Shown here: positions 35,521 through 55,247 of the stretch, one piece after another
Position numbering within the stretch: the first letter of the stretch is position 1
How the letters are laid out: every line of letters begins with the position of its first letter
Source: Candidatus Poribacteria bacterium
Lineage (GTDB): Bacteria; Poribacteria; WGA-4E; WGA-3G
Direction: 5' to 3'
NCBI GenBank assembly: GCA_009841255.1
Contig: VXMD01000048.1
Span: 1 to 64,000, forward strand
Length of the DNA stretch: 64,000 nucleotides
The notes under the pieces: generated by a model
What the model was told of the DNA's origin: nothing
Seen by the model: only the letters and a program-made list of their open reading frames with translations
Database searches by the model: none
Made by a program: the position numbers and the translations under genes

Positions 35521-36430
35521 CGCAGACGTGTGCGTTCGGACTGGAGGGTCGGCGTTCAGGACGCAAATCAGACACTGTCATGCCGTTTGTTAAAGTGCCT
35601 TCGGTTTCCACTTGCACATCCGCTGCAACGCTTTCAAAATAATCTGGGTGTGTGAGCATACCGATCGGGAGTGCGTCATGGATATGAAATCCCCAGAATC
35701 CAACGTATTGTCGGTAAAATTCCATACAGGATTCTGTCGCGTCCTTAATGAATTGGGAAATTCTGTCAGATCGATTATCGATTTCCGCGTGCAATCGTTC
35801 ACCGGTTAAAACGACTTGATGTGTTGCATCGAGCGGGGCGATATGAATAGGCACATCGAATTGGAAAACTTCGTGTGCTGCGTGTGGATCGACGAAAATG
35901 TTGAACTCTGCCGTAGTCGTAACGTTTCCGTATACCTCAAACGCTCCGCCCATCACAACGATCTTCTGCAGTCGTTGCATCTTTGCCGCATCTTTACGAA
36001 TTGCCTTGGCGACGTTTGTTAGCGGACCGAGTGCCACGAGTGTGAGGGCATCTGGATAGCGTGTTACCATCTCAAGGATGAGATCGACCCCTGAAGTGGA
36101 TAAGATGTCTGTGTCAGCGGGCGGGTACAGCGGACTCCCATCAGCGTTTCGCAGTTGACTCACATTTCCTAAGCCGTCATCACCGTGGACATGAGCGGCT
36201 GTTACGAGAGGCTTGACGAGCGGTTGTGCTGCTCCTTGGGCAATAAGGGGGAATTCCTCCAAATCGAGCACCTTAAGAATTCTAAGCAGGTTCTCTGTTC
36301 CCTGTGTAACAGGAACATTTCCGCAGACGGTTGTTATTGCCTCTATCTGCAATTCGGGTGAGAGCATTCCGAGGAGAATGGCGAGGGCATCGTCTACTCC
36401 TGGATCTGTGTCTATAAGGATGCGTTGCAT
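35468..36430 (-). CDS. Inosine-uridine-preferring nucleoside hydrolase
   Basis: A 320-residue nucleoside hydrolase that splits the N-glycosidic bond of ribonucleosides. The calcium and ribose site DTDPGVDDA is at residues 7-15, with later motifs LVALGPLTNVAKAI, VVMGGAFEVYGNVTTTAEFN and the C-terminal HIHDALPIG. The start was placed at the ATG at 36430, not the open frame from 36487. The 3' end overlaps the beta-helix gene on the other strand. thiO lies upstream on the same strand, 59 bp away. Confidence 0.92.
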   Translation of the reverse strand: MQRILIDTDPGVDDALAILLGMLSPELQIEAITTVCGNVPVTQGTENLLRILKVLDLEEFPLIAQGAAQPLVKPLVTAAHVHGDDGLGNVSQLRNADGSPLYPPADTDILSTSGVDLILEMVTRYPDALTLVALGPLTNVAKAIRKDAAKMQRLQKIVVMGGAFEVYGNVTTTAEFNIFVDPHAAHEVFQFDVPIHIAPLDATHQVVLTGERLHAEIDNRSDRISQFIKDATESCMEFYRQYVGFWGFHIHDALPIGMLTHPDYFESVAADVQVETEGTLTNGMTVSDLRPERRPSSPNAHVCVKVAAEAFLDHFFERLR

Positions 36431-36489
36431 GTTTGTCTCTTTACAAAATCTCGGTATTTCTACAAATTTGTAGATGCAGTTATCCAACC

Positions 36490-37668
36490 CTACGCTTCTG
36501 AAAACCTGTCCAATTGGAACGGAGCGATTGTCTCCGAGGTCTCACCCGTCAGAATCAGTTTGGAGATCTCGTAAGCTGTGATGGGTGTGAGTAAGATGCC
36601 GTTGCGATAGTGGCCTGTTGCATATATAAGATTCTCGACAGGTGTTTTACCGAGTATGGGAGCATTGTCGCTGCTGCCGGGACGTAAACCCGTCCAAGTT
36701 TCGATTAGTGGGAGTTCATAAAAACCCGGCACCGCTTCACACGCCCCGCGCATAAGTTCATATATACCACCAACGGTCAGATGCGGATCAAACCCCAGTT
36801 CCTCGGTTGTCGCACCGACGACAAGTCTACCATCGGTTCTCGGCACTAAATATACCGGTATCGGATACCGCGTCTTGACGGTGCGAATGACGTTTTCGAT
36901 CCGAATACCCTCCTGCATTTGCAATGCCAACATCTGTCCCTTCACAGGGCGCACGGGCGGGGCAATCGTATCCGGTAACCCCCGGATCTGACCAGACCAG
37001 CATCCTGCGGCGAGAATACATACATCTGCGCCTTGAAAACCGTCTTGTGTTTGAACACCCGTTGCGGTTCCGTTTTCTATGACAATTCTTTCAACAGCAC
37101 TATTTTGATGCAACACGCCGCCACGCTTCTGATAGGGATACTGGAGTGCCTGAGCCATCAGACGGTTATCAACTTGATGATCAGTTTCACAACGAATCGC
37201 TGCAGTCACGTATGGCGAGAGCGCACCTTCAATTTCACGGGCTTCGCGTCCGCTCAACCACTCGACATTCAACCCTAACTCTTGTTGGAAGGCATACGTA
37301 TGTCGGAGTTGATCTGTCTCATCAGATCCAATTCCGATAATGAGCGTGCCTTCTGATCGGTAACCGATCGACATTTCTGTTTCCGTCTCTAACTCATCAA
37401 CCCATTCCGGGTAGCGTGCCAAACTTTGATTGCTGAGTTCGAGGAGAGTGAGTTCGTCGCTATGGGCTTCCGCAATTGGACCGAGCATCCCCCCGGCTGC
37501 CCAAGAGGCACCGCGTCCGGCGTGTCCGCTTTCATAAATGGTGACGGCGGCACCCTTTTTCGCCAACTGCCATCCGATACCCAGTCCAATCACACCTCCA
37601 CCAATGATGAGAATCTTCTGATTTTTGACACTCCCACACCTAAAGTCGTGGGATTCTTGCTTCTGCAT
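36490..37668 (-). CDS. thiO: Glycine oxidase ThiO-type FAD enzyme
   Basis: A 392-residue FAD-dependent amine oxidase. The dinucleotide fold is KILIIGGGVIGLGIGWQLAK, then GASWAAGGMLGP, and the end TGHYRNGILLTPITA is diagnostic for ThiO, which makes iminoglycine for thiazole synthesis. No other thiamine genes are adjacent. The N-terminus is odd: the first 14 residues (MQKQESHDFRCGSV) come from the right end of the adjacent IS605-group element, which also supplies the ribosome site GGGAGG six bases before the ATG at 37668. The native start codon was probably lost on insertion. Confidence 0.9.
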   Translation of the reverse strand: MQKQESHDFRCGSVKNQKILIIGGGVIGLGIGWQLAKKGAAVTIYESGHAGRGASWAAGGMLGPIAEAHSDELTLLELSNQSLARYPEWVDELETETEMSIGYRSEGTLIIGIGSDETDQLRHTYAFQQELGLNVEWLSGREAREIEGALSPYVTAAIRCETDHQVDNRLMAQALQYPYQKRGGVLHQNSAVERIVIENGTATGVQTQDGFQGADVCILAAGCWSGQIRGLPDTIAPPVRPVKGQMLALQMQEGIRIENVIRTVKTRYPIPVYLVPRTDGRLVVGATTEELGFDPHLTVGGIYELMRGACEAVPGFYELPLIETWTGLRPGSSDNAPILGKTPVENLIYATGHYRNGILLTPITAYEISKLILTGETSETIAPFQLDRFSEA

Positions 37669-37720
37669 TTGTAACCTCCCGCAAGTGGAGGGATTACACA
37701 AACTCCACAAGCGTTTTAAC
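37625..37720 (-). ncRNA. Predicted omega RNA (reRNA) scaffold at the tnpB 3' end
   Basis: In characterised TnpB systems the guide RNA is made from the 3' end of tnpB through the right end into flanking DNA. Here that region has two hairpin candidates (CTCCACTTGCGGGAG-like near 37675-37692 and the CCCAC/GTGGG end hairpin). The guide would be the thiO sequence from 37624 downward. The assignment rests on family knowledge and position only. Confidence 0.5.
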
Positions 37721-38915
37721 TCTCCGCGTGTCCCGCGGCGAGGGTGAGCGGAAGTGTCCCATCACGATGATCGCGATCGGACGCCTTCCGCCTTAAATTG
37801 ATTGCGGCGTTAACATCTCGGTCTATGGACGCGCCACAATTGCGACACTGATACTGCCGATCTGATAGTGTTAAGTCGTCTTTCTTATGTCCGCAGGTGC
37901 TACAGTTTCTCGAACTGGCGAAAAAGCGATCCGCCTGCACAATCGGGATACTTAGTGCTTTCGCTTTCGCCTTGAGCTTCTCAAAGAAACCGCCAAGCGC
38001 AGCGTCTGATAAAGCTTTTGCCAGTTTTCTATTCTTGAGCAGGTTCGTAACCTGTAGCGTTTCTATACCGATTTTGGATACACACTTAAGAATATCGGTT
38101 GTTGCCTGATGGTGTGCGTCGCGACGGATACAAGCAATCCGATAGTGGAGTCGCTCCACAATCCGCTTTTGCTTATACCAATTGGCACTTAAGAAAACTT
38201 TACGACTTAACTTGCGTTGCTCGCGTGCTAACTTGCGCTCGTAGCGTTTGAGAGGTTGCGGGTTCTCATACTTCGTTCCATCGTCAAGCGTTGCTAATGT
38301 CGAAATGCCAACGTCTATACCGATAGTGGGGTAGATTGATCTTTCAATCTTATCAGGTGTTCCAATATCGGTATGAGATACATACCCATTAACAAACTCG
38401 GTCGGTGCTGGACAGCGACGGATAGGTTCTTCAACTTCTACGGATACAGACGCAAACCAACGATGTGCTGTCCTTGAGATCGTGACGGATACGATTTTAC
38501 CTGCAAAACGCAATTCTTGAAATGTCTTTACCCAGCCGATTTTGGGTAACTTGATGCGCTTGCCTTCTATGCGGACAGCTTGTTCGTCGGTGGTGTAGGT
38601 GTGTTTGCAACCTCGTTTTTTGAGTCTTGGAAACTTTGTCCGCTTTGCTTTCCAATTGTCTATGGCAGAACCGAGATGATGGACGGCATACATCGCAGCA
38701 CGTTGATCTTGTGCTTGCGTCCAATCGTATTCCTTCTTTTTTTCATTAAAGCGTTTGTTAAGGTCATACATGGATAAGAAATTATCCGCTGAGAGTTCCG
38801 CCTTAAAATCAGACAACGCAGAATTGTAAGCAAACTTCGCATAACCACATTGCTGGTAAAACCACGCAATCTGATCGCGATTCGGGCGTAATGCAATTTT
38901 ATGTGTCTTTATCAT
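37716..38915 (-). CDS. tnpB: TnpB RNA-guided nuclease, IS605 group
   Basis: A 399-residue TnpB with an apparently intact nuclease. The RuvC residues are D201 (GIDVGISTLATL), E285 (IGIETLQV) and the Asp pair in IDRDVNAA (D365/D367). The zinc finger cysteines are C338, C341, C357 and C360 (CSTCGHKK and CRNCGA). The N-terminal MIKTHKIALRPN and the LPKIGWVKTFQ segment are family-typical. Homologues cut DNA next to a short TAM under omega-RNA guidance, which helps the element to persist. No frameshift is present, so activity is plausible. Confidence 0.95.
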   Translation of the reverse strand: MIKTHKIALRPNRDQIAWFYQQCGYAKFAYNSALSDFKAELSADNFLSMYDLNKRFNEKKKEYDWTQAQDQRAAMYAVHHLGSAIDNWKAKRTKFPRLKKRGCKHTYTTDEQAVRIEGKRIKLPKIGWVKTFQELRFAGKIVSVTISRTAHRWFASVSVEVEEPIRRCPAPTEFVNGYVSHTDIGTPDKIERSIYPTIGIDVGISTLATLDDGTKYENPQPLKRYERKLAREQRKLSRKVFLSANWYKQKRIVERLHYRIACIRRDAHHQATTDILKCVSKIGIETLQVTNLLKNRKLAKALSDAALGGFFEKLKAKAKALSIPIVQADRFFASSRNCSTCGHKKDDLTLSDRQYQCRNCGASIDRDVNAAINLRRKASDRDHRDGTLPLTLAAGHAES

Positions 38916-38956
38916 GGACTATCAGGTATCAGGCTTTTATCCCCCGTAACGTAGGA

Positions 38957-38997
38957 GGCAGACACATTACCAAGCGGTAATGCGTTACATGTCTGCC
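38957..38997. repeat. Nested hairpin at the tnpB element left end
   Basis: Outer arms GGCAGACA (38957-38964) and TGTCTGCC (38990-38997) enclose an inner 6-bp hairpin ATTACC-AAGC-GGTAAT (38966-38981). Such subterminal hairpins are what single-strand TnpA transposases recognise. Confidence 0.75.
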
Positions 38998-39002
38998 AAC
39001 CT

Positions 39003-39422
39003 GATATTTTAATTATACCACTTATGACGCTGTTTTTCACGGATCCTAAAGTGTGGGCAGTACTTTGTATCAATTTTAGCATGACGAGGTAATTTTGTCC
39101 AATTACAGAACGATTTTGGATGTGTAAAGTTTTTGACATCAAGCGTTCCCTTCGTCTCCCCAAGCCCGGTAGGTGCGGTTTCCTAACCGCACCGGAGATT
39201 CTGATACGCAACAGTATTTCCTAAAACCCGCGAAATCTGCCTCATCAAAGGCGTGGTTCGTAGTAGTGCAATTCATTGTGCCTTGCGTAAGTCCTGATTA
39301 ACCTAAGTTGCGACGTTCAGTGCCTTGCAATTTGCGGGTTTATGTGCTATGCTGTTAAATGTCCATTTTAGCGAGGCACCTCGCTATCAAAACATTCAAC
39401 CCTCAAAATAGAGCGACATGCT
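39003..39422. other. Gap between the IS element and the small open frame
   Basis: Starts with a minus-strand core of the start-site repeat (GGTATAATTAAAA, 39006-39018). Further right there is a possible promoter, TTGCAA (39325-39330), 17-base spacer, TATGCT (39348-39353), aimed at the small frame at 39423. The GCGAGGCACCTCGC inverted repeat (39371-39384) follows. No other gene was seen. Confidence 0.45.
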
Positions 39423-52568: not shown

Positions 52569-55247
52569 TTACTTCAGGATAACCATTTTGCGTATGGGAG
52601 AAATTTCGCCTGTTTTTAGTTGATAAAAATAAACGCCACTCGCAATCCGTTCCCCGAAACCGTTGCGACCATCCCAATACGCCGCGCTGCTTCTGTCGGT
52701 GTAATAGCCTGCTGACTGATGTCCAAGCCCAAGTGTCCGCACGACAGTACCTCTCGTATCGTAAATCGTAATCTGGACATCACTGGCATCTGCCAATTGG
52801 TAGGGTATCCATGTCTCTGGGTTAAATGGATTAGGAAAGTTCGGGTAAAGTTGTGTATTATCAGGCAGTGAAGCGATTATAGGTGCGGCAGGAGCACCTT
52901 CTTCTACCTCAAAGCGAACAATTTCCGTGAAGTCTGCGCGAAGAGTATTCCCGGCTTTATCAAATACAGTCATCTCAGCGAGTCCCCATATACCTGGAGC
53001 ACTACCCACAGGTAAAACTATTCTCTGGTGATATTCCTTGAAAAGAGCAGGGTTACCGGTAAAGTATAGCCCACCGTATCCGTCCGGATAGTGATAAAAA
53101 TGGTGCATAACTCCCTGTGGATCCCTTAAATTCATACTGCTTATTTCATAACCGCTTATATTATCTTTGATCCTAAAGGAAATATTAACTATTGTTTCGC
53201 CGTTGGGAGCTTCTGGTATGGTAGGTTCGGCTTTAATAGTAATACGATTAACATCTAAAACGGGCGGTTCAAGGTCTGGCGTCTCTGTTTTTATTTCAAT
53301 AGTTTTTGGAGGTTCGTCTGTGGTGTCATCTGTGAAATAAACACTTGATTCATTCAAGGCAGTATCTGACATACGAATATGGTTAAGATGATAAGTCCCA
53401 CTTGGCATATATTCAGGAAATTCAAACTTTACAACGGCTCTATCTGATTCGGAATTATAGCCTCCATATTGATATTGTCTATATATTGAATGAGTTTCTC
53501 GCAAATTGTCATTCAGAGCCGCAGCAACAAATTCTATGCCTGATTTTTCTATCACTTTCCAACTTGCAGTAACAATTTGATAAGGTCTTCCCTCTGTAGT
53601 CGTTGCTGTTGACAAAGAGAGTTGCATTGAGTTTTTTACATACTCCGGAGGCTCACAGTCAGCAAGCGGATTGTCAATATAGAGTTTCCACCCAAAATCG
53701 GTTTGTCCACCGTGTCGTTCATTACCATTAGCATCCCAGATTTGAATTGCGTCAGGACCCCAGTAGCCATTCGCGGCGTACTTTGATAACGTCGCCTGTC
53801 CACGTAAAATGTGTCCAGAAGCTACGTGCATTCCATTGGTATCAACCGGAGACATCCACGCAAGGTCAAAAAAAGTGCCTTTTTCACTGAAAACTCTGAT
53901 GTATGCAGATTGTGCGGCATCCAGGGCACTCTCTCCCTGAATCTCAATCTCTACTGTTATCTGTTTGTCTTCTTCGGGTTCACCTTCAACCTGTATATCT
54001 ATCCGAATTATTCGTCCCGGATAGACATAATCTGGATACAGGTTGTAGACCTCGAAGGTTAAATCCTCACGAATCTTGGAGATATACCGAGTGCCGTGCA
54101 TAATCCTATTTTGAATGAACTCGTATTTGGCAGGTGAGCGAGAGCGTAACTTGTCGGGATTCACGATGTAGTAACTGATACTTTCCGCCATATCCTCATT
54201 TGGATTTACGCCGTGTGCATAAGCGGAGACAAACTCTACTTGCTTTGTTGTTGACCAGCCATCTTTATCGTTGGGATTTTCAAACCAACCGCCAAGTTCA
54301 ATCCAATCCTGTTTGAGTTGTTCGTTAAAGAGATGTGCCCACAAAAAATGTGCCTTTTCATGGAGAATCAAACGGTGAATATAGTCGGTTCCCTGCCCCT
54401 TAAAAGCAGATTCCATAAATTCAATGTAACCGGCACTTGGCCACGCAACCGCAGGGGCAGTTGGATAAAGTGGATGTGGGGTTCCATCCAAACGTCGAAC
54501 CAAATAGTTGAGGCCTGGCGTTTTAAGCATACCTTGTGGAAATTCTTCAAGCATAGAGACCAGTGCTATCAATTCTTCGTTTTTAAATTCAGAGAAACGT
54601 CCAGCGTGTTCACCCGTTGTATGCCGTGTGAGTTCGCTATAATCTGGGATATTGATGCTGACGGCGTAGCGTTCTTGCAATATCCACTCAAGTGCGTATC
54701 TGTCCGAACCACTGTCGGTTACGAACCGAACCACGGCGTGATGGAGCCGTTTAGAGAAATACCGACCCCGAACGCCTTCAATTTCCGCTAACAGCGGTGT
54801 AGCATGCACAAACGCTTCTTCAGCAATGGTGGCTGTCCGCTGACCGTCTCGGTATTCCACCGATATGTCATCTTGAATATGACGGGTGCTTAGCCTCCAA
54901 ATAGAGGATGGGACTCCGGGACTTTCCGCGTAAGGGTTGTTCGTTTCTTGTGGTATGGACTCAAAAGTTCGGAGCAACCTGTAAGCATGTCCGGGGCTCC
55001 ATTCAGGTCCCAGGTACACAGAATACTTTCGCATCAACGCTAAAGATGCGCTGTGTGAGGCAATTTCTATCGGTTCATCTAACAGCGTCACTTGCACAGG
55101 TTCAACGATGGTCGCACTTTCACTGCCTTCTGGGGTTTCATCTATTTCCCAGTGGTAGGTAAAAGGCGCACCTTGGATGTCGGGATTACAAATCCCTCCT
55201 ACAAGAAAGATCGCTAAGATTATGGTGAATTTGGCGGTTTTCATCAT
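52569..55247 (-). CDS. Large secreted HExxH protein with an FlgD-like C-terminal domain
   Basis: An 892-residue exported protein. The signal sequence covers residues 1-27. A zinc-protease motif HEKAHFLWAH (H296, E297, H300) is followed by NEDMAES (E351, E355) as the likely third ligand. Residues 400-740 contain beta-sandwich, cadherin- or Ig-like modules (VNISFRIKDNISGYEISSMN). The last 95 residues match the FlgD Ig-like or sorting-type domain: LYPNFPNPFNPETWIPYQL, VQITIYDTRG, GVYFYQLKTG, ending KMVILK. It may be a cell-surface or released metallopeptidase; activity is unproven. Confidence 0.8.
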   Translation of the reverse strand: MMKTAKFTIILAIFLVGGICNPDIQGAPFTYHWEIDETPEGSESATIVEPVQVTLLDEPIEIASHSASLALMRKYSVYLGPEWSPGHAYRLLRTFESIPQETNNPYAESPGVPSSIWRLSTRHIQDDISVEYRDGQRTATIAEEAFVHATPLLAEIEGVRGRYFSKRLHHAVVRFVTDSGSDRYALEWILQERYAVSINIPDYSELTRHTTGEHAGRFSEFKNEELIALVSMLEEFPQGMLKTPGLNYLVRRLDGTPHPLYPTAPAVAWPSAGYIEFMESAFKGQGTDYIHRLILHEKAHFLWAHLFNEQLKQDWIELGGWFENPNDKDGWSTTKQVEFVSAYAHGVNPNEDMAESISYYIVNPDKLRSRSPAKYEFIQNRIMHGTRYISKIREDLTFEVYNLYPDYVYPGRIIRIDIQVEGEPEEDKQITVEIEIQGESALDAAQSAYIRVFSEKGTFFDLAWMSPVDTNGMHVASGHILRGQATLSKYAANGYWGPDAIQIWDANGNERHGGQTDFGWKLYIDNPLADCEPPEYVKNSMQLSLSTATTTEGRPYQIVTASWKVIEKSGIEFVAAALNDNLRETHSIYRQYQYGGYNSESDRAVVKFEFPEYMPSGTYHLNHIRMSDTALNESSVYFTDDTTDEPPKTIEIKTETPDLEPPVLDVNRITIKAEPTIPEAPNGETIVNISFRIKDNISGYEISSMNLRDPQGVMHHFYHYPDGYGGLYFTGNPALFKEYHQRIVLPVGSAPGIWGLAEMTVFDKAGNTLRADFTEIVRFEVEEGAPAAPIIASLPDNTQLYPNFPNPFNPETWIPYQLADASDVQITIYDTRGTVVRTLGLGHQSAGYYTDRSSAAYWDGRNGFGERIASGVYFYQLKTGEISPIRKMVILK

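Follow-up and report, generated by a model that had tools for sequence, protein, structure and literature searches.

Elements that carry tnpB alone are common and are moved in trans, and the attachment sites of phages and integrative elements restore the end of the gene that they interrupt, usually at one fixed site per element. It is documented for TnpB that the guide is the DNA lying just 3' of the element's right end (PMC8612924), and that TnpB cuts the omegaRNA from its own mRNA (PMC10278001). IStrons, in which a group I intron is joined to an IS200/IS605 or IS607 element, self-splice from RNA (PMC4227781). In this study, we present evidence that a tnpB-only lineage of IS200/IS605 type in Candidatus Poribacteria very probably inserts 3' of host start codons and restarts the interrupted genes from its own Shine-Dalgarno (SD) sequence and ATG, as a 14-residue fusion. 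The locus at which this was noticed lies in the first 64,000 nucleotides of contig VXMD01000048.1 (the window), where the order on the minus strand is tnpB, right end and thiO, with the following features:

36490..37625, minus strand: what remains of host thiO (glycine oxidase ThiO), native codon 2 through to the stop codon; the native ATG is missing
37606..37625, minus strand: predicted guide segment, the first 20 nt past the right end, which are thiO codons 2-8, placed by TnpB reRNA geometry (PMC8612924)
37626..37668, minus strand: element-encoded leader ATG CAG AAG CAA GAA TCC CAC GAC TTT AGG TGT GGG AGT GTC A (43 nt), leading in phase into thiO codon 2
37675..37680, minus strand: SD sequence GGGAGG, 6 nt (TTACAA) before the ATG at 37668-37666, and 3' strand of the omegaRNA hairpin CCCUCC(37692-37687)-ACUUGC-GGGAGG
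37626..37737, minus strand: predicted omegaRNA scaffold and element right end, overlapping the 3' end of tnpB (covariance model R1, 130.7 bits)
37716..38915, minus strand: tnpB, 399 aa, with OrfB_IS605 and Cas12f1-like_TNB domains
39012..39040, minus strand: promoter-like sequence GTGAAA-17-TATAAT upstream of tnpB in the remaining left end; the promoter scan was not above chance

The host gene belongs to the TIGR02352 equivalog family (369 bits against a curated cutoff of 250.8), and its frame, which ends at the stop codon 36490-36492 on the minus strand, runs without a stop up into the right end of the TnpB element. In 27 of 27 thiO orthologues (83-89% identical) the native ATG directly precedes the codons aligned with AAA-AAT of the window; the orthologue starts read MKNKKILIIGGG and variants of it, and the start at locus L044, ATG AAA AAT CAG AAG ATT CTC, has the same codons as the window. 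The position of the native ATG is occupied in the window by GTC of the element, whose 14 residues are present in none of the 27 orthologues shown. By this alignment the element sits exactly at the native thiO start codon, and ATGA/AAAATCAG as the empty site (the slash marks the insertion point here and below) fits the TAM (target-adjacent motif) of other copies. Two extra rows of the alignment are a thiO paralogue of 75% identity, likewise with ATG at that position. The window genome has a second thiO-like gene (75% identity) at G000:C33:38204-39322 (L066), and such a pair is present in most family genomes. Other starts in this frame are, upstream, the TTGs at 37710 and 37701, neither with an SD, and, downstream, GTG 37593 and TTG 37566, both within or beyond the GGGVIG motif that binds FAD. 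GGGAGG-TTACAA-ATG of the element is the sole plausible start.

These results bear out most of the sequence-only reading, which had the thiO frame entering the right end of the insertion sequence, the sole good start (ATG 37668 after GGGAGG) inside the element and residues 1-14 encoded by it. It had proposed that N-termini shared with relatives lacking the insertion, or an internal start, would speak against this; no relative shares the 14 residues, and the sequence offers no usable internal start. That the native start is not visible was also correct, the left end of the window copy having been lost upstream of ~39040. When the thiO-upstream genes of five relatives were compared with the window, no match adjoined the element and one fragment matched elsewhere (52572-52865).

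Two further copies in the window genome, 83% identical, together with the alignment of the family, define the element boundary. From the first base of the ATG to the insertion point (between 37626 and 37625) there are 43 nt, that is, 14 codons and one base, and the right end of the window reads CCCUCC-ACUUGC-GGGAGG-UUACAA-AUG-CAG-AAG-CAA-GAA-UCCCAC-loop-GUGGGAGUGUCA, followed by thiO sequence. The consensus fold of the right end is conserved, with five pairs changed on both sides and kept, as in a structured scaffold. In the consensus fold and in that of the window, the SD is the 3' strand of a CCUCC:GGAGG hairpin, so that the predicted fold sequesters it, and the A and U of the AUG are paired in the adjacent helix. 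Among 20 aligned right ends no indels fall between the ATG and the insertion point, all of them lying upstream of the ATG. The distance from start codon to junction is 43 nt in 42 copies and 49 nt in 9; a single apparent length of 40 reflects a model match that ends 9 nt early and is really 49, and the difference between the two lengths is made up of several indels, together +6, which leaves the phase unchanged. The sequence-only reading had also pointed to the thiO codons as the guide of an omegaRNA; the geometry is right, but it is general to every TnpB insertion and is a sign of nothing special. What is special here is the start signal inside the omegaRNA scaffold, rather than the position of the guide.

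The protein itself is a TnpB by its profile match (guided_TnpB, 242.8 bits against a cutoff of 100), its D/E/D catalytic motifs in IGIDVG (198), IGIETL (282) and IDRDVNAA (364), and its two CxxC pairs. Between the element ends there is tnpB alone, with no tnpA-like ORF (Y1 transposase), and no group I intron was matched in Rfam up to E=1 across window positions 36400-39400. The window copy has lost its outer left end, including the AACAATCCCA hairpin and the flanking native ATGA, and no left-end remnant was found upstream of ~39040 in the window. The promoter scan gave 4 sequences against 3.6 expected and did no better than shuffles. An inverted repeat, GGTAGGTGCGGTTTCC..AACCGCACCGG, lies at ~39150-39210 just upstream of the truncated left end, and similar ones lie upstream of L138 and L143. 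All but one of the named TnpB relatives are labelled Poribacteria, like the host; an 88%-identical TnpB at L162 (VXNY01000010.1) comes from a metagenome-assembled genome (MAG) labelled Gammaproteobacteria, by misbinning or transfer.

Copies were gathered across 59 family genomes by TnpB similarity and the right-end covariance model, blind to downstream content, and copies with the same flanks were removed before distinct right ends were counted; the genomes are mostly MAGs, with G055 and G057 near-complete in few contigs. An SD-ATG (or GTG) leader is present in 52 distinct right ends, and its frame stays open for at least 100 codons in 40 of the 52 and for at least 42 codons in 44 (12 stay below 100 codons and 8 below 42). 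By comparison, a frame open for at least 100 codons follows 18% of ATGA sites in the window (binomial p 6e-20 for 40/52 against 0.18, a value that overstates the strength as the copies are homologous and non-independent), and leaderless right ends reach 100 codons in 3 of 12 cases (Fisher p 0.0012, a guide only among related copies). Two other copies in the window genome likewise continue in frame into different genes, and one of these genes, for a Gfo/Idh/MocA oxidoreductase, is entered at its first residues. Pfam matches in the fused frames often begin a few residues past the leader, near model positions 1-4: at residue 18 and model position 2 for Gfo/Idh/MocA, 15 and 2 for UDP-glucose dehydrogenase, 16 and 1 for an epimerase, 15 and 2 for a sulfatase, and 20 and 1 for aconitase/LeuC. 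Five fused frames (L073, L080, L104, L264, L292) read by eye as signal peptides. At eight loci (L270, L302, L304, L279, L311, L265, L298, L294) tnpB is absent or fragmentary and the leader still opens a gene, and we regard this persistence as the best sequence evidence that the start may be in use. As a separate observation, the leader at L279 (1573-2829) is fused to a GIY-YIG and phage-integrase protein, a case in which a mobile gene takes its start from a second one.

Empty sites in relatives place the insertions directly after ATGA, and some of the filled genes occur in single copy. A single leuC gene was found in 56 of 59 genomes, and that of G053 starts inside an element right end. Its 99%-identical relative in G049 is empty, reading AGGTAAAAGAAAACC-ATGA/AAAAAACGATG; the filled site of G053 has AGGTAAAAGAAAGAT-ATGA/AGGG on the left and GTGTCA/AAAAAACGATG on the right, both flanks closely matching G049. 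This exact empty site displays a fixed motif 5' of the left end without target-site duplication (ATGA/left end...TCA/). For pyrE, 57 genomes have one match each, with filled sites in G029 and G030, and the junction codon in the 28 listed relatives is ATG in 26 and GTG in one more. The gene tsaD occurs once in each of eight genomes tested and is filled in the one-contig G057, where it starts in the right end; the native ATG stands at the junction in 7 of 7 relatives. Start re-supply would explain how insertions come to stand at codon 1 of single-copy core genes such as these three. Intact left ends follow directly after the native start, as at L008 (...GGAGATACAA-ATGA/AGGAAATC), L086 (...GGAGGTTTCACCA-ATGA/AGGGCATT) and L080 (...GAGGAGAATTGAAAT-ATGA/AGGGCATA); some copies have TTGA, GTGA, CTGA or TGGA at the left, so that the strict motif is about TGA. 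In many copies, L008, L070 and L080 among them, the stranded native start begins a short reading frame whose stop codon lies in the left end (ATG AAG GGC ATT GTC TAA, MKGIV).

The insertion point, the in-frame leader, its recurrence at ~40 genes, the empty sites, the single-copy core genes and the leaders kept without tnpB can all be read directly in the DNA, and they suggest the following mechanism. The element would insert directly 3' of a host start codon, at a TAM (A)TGA within ATGA, so that the native ribosome-binding site and ATG are cut off from the remaining codons. The element's right end, at once the 3' part of the omegaRNA scaffold, would then bring in a strong SD (GGAGG), a start codon and another 13 sense codons, and a leader length of 1 modulo 3 would put the host gene in phase, to be re-started as an N-terminal fusion. 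Transcription would come by read-through from tnpB or upstream promoters, and ribosomes would use the element start, as the conservation suggests. At thiO, where the outer left end has since been lost, the element start would now be the only one. Because SD and AUG are base-paired in the predicted fold, a folded scaffold and an open ribosome site would be mutually exclusive for any one segment, and translation can be expected to come into conflict with TnpB, which makes omegaRNA by cutting the mRNA that encodes it. We infer that guide-RNA formation, through omegaRNA folding and TnpB binding, should compete with translation. The bias toward start sites probably comes both from the ATGA-containing TAM and from the survival of gene-sparing insertions.

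A sister clade, whose TnpBs branch outside the ATGA-type lineage in a midpoint-rooted tree, has GGAG as its left flank (...AAAGGAG/TAGTTCC) and right ends reading GAAGGAACAG/ or GAAAGGATAACAG/, with ATG or GTG 4-10 nt past the right end in 10 of 11 copies. It inserts after the SD GGAG, splitting the SD from the ATG and re-supplying an SD-like GAAGGA; at larA, an empty site reads for instance GGAAGGAG/CAAATACGTA-ATG. At L336 (G039:C55 ~54895-55039) an SD-type right end GAAGGAACAG stands 5 nt before MPKIKTHKGAAKRFKFTAKGKIRRK, which by eye resembles ribosomal protein L35 (rpmI); if it is rpmI, this looks like an essential gene with an SD supplied by an insertion sequence. A second covariance model for this clade, R2, found few new members. 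Copies of clade B (L076, L077, L106, L125, L130, L140) are also at ATGA gene starts, of genes that by eye are methyltransferase-like, amidohydrolase-like and anti-sigma-like, with only GTG AGT ATC A in frame before the junction. We do not propose start re-supply for clade B, whose right end offers just a GTG without SD, 10 nt from the junction, or weaker GTG or TTG codons upstream, not consistently in phase. No start-codon pattern was seen by eye in type O (~50% TnpB identity, right end ...CACAACGG).

It is conceivable, though unlikely, that selection alone acts as a filter: the element would insert at any TGA, in-frame copies at ATGA starts would survive, and the SD-ATG that makes them harmless would be an accident of an omegaRNA structure that needs its CCUCC:GGAGG hairpin anyway. 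Non-leader type O right ends do carry ACG where the leader type has ATG (GAAACGACGAAGCAGG vs GAAATGACGAAACAAG), and in G055 near-identical young copies with the 49-nt leader occupy five NTGA sites (CTGA, TTGA or GTGA), of which only one or two are gene starts (L136, perhaps L133; not L082, L109 or L110). Older copies are almost all at gene starts, yet intergenic TGA sites should have survived at least equally well and are rare among them, and the GGAG targeting of the sister clade, with its re-supplied SD-like sequence, suggests that aiming at start signals is a habit of the lineage. Either targeting alone is weak or the G055 sample is young, and we read the pattern as probably TAM preference combined with survival of harmless copies.

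That the insertions inactivate genes whose open frames have merely not yet decayed is very improbable. Some leader copies do lack a downstream gene (L071/L072, L271, L273), and the window genome has a 75% thiO paralogue; against this, leuC, pyrE and tsaD each occur in single copy and keep long, intact frames, dN/dS is 0.02 for leuC and, against relatives, ~0.16 for thiO (the pairs include time before insertion), and leaders persist where tnpB is gone. The sequence-only reading had described thiO as a captured gene expressed from mobile DNA, and at the thiO locus alone a one-off capture would be true of the sequence. The arrangement recurs at about 40 genes across many genomes, with exact empty sites in relatives, which refutes a one-off capture as a sufficient account and leaves it scarcely credible; thiO did not move, the element landed at its start codon, and this is a recurrent property of the lineage at dozens of genes.

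Beyond start re-supply itself, we tentatively suggest a wider possibility, to which we give somewhat less than even weight, that the lineage practises translation-start mimicry. It would use start signals as its TAM (the SD GGAG first, later ATGA) and its own omegaRNA as a portable ribosome site and start codon, each RNA segment becoming either a guide or the 5' end of a gene, so that TnpB activity and host gene expression would be mutually exclusive per transcript. The guide would be aimed at the first codons of the same gene, keeping every uninterrupted allele a target, and a copy without its left end could not be removed without loss of the gene start. Such loci would be natural test cases of how guide-RNA formation and translation conflict when a single RNA serves both, and TAM evolution would be testable in nature by comparing GGAG with ATGA in sister clades. 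For annotation, gene callers may take the leader for a native N-terminus, or miss it.

We found no earlier report of such start-signal insertion by TnpB elements in the open PMC literature, and know of no other TnpB strategy at the level of translation initiation. If true, TnpB elements would have a third means of residing in genes without killing them, beside clean excision and IStron splicing. The element shares with ISDra2-type IS200/IS605 elements (PMC8612924) its TnpB domains, catalytic motifs and right-end RNA scaffold overlapping the tnpB 3' end, as well as a TAM 5' of the left end, a guide from the 3' flank and, in the leuC case, the lack of target duplication. It differs from them in that the TAM is (A)TGA, or GGAG in the sister clade, which places copies in translation start sites, in its in-frame SD-ATG leader, and in the lack of tnpA; its mobility and nuclease activity are putative. 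Attachment sites of phages and integrative elements are alike in that DNA of the element completes the split gene, but the Poribacteria element does so with a generic start signal, at dozens of genes unrelated to one another. IStrons have the same effect, a TnpB-type element residing in genes that it does not destroy (PMC4227781); they leave the RNA by splicing, whereas the Poribacteria element would remain part of the mRNA and put its own translation start in place of the native one.
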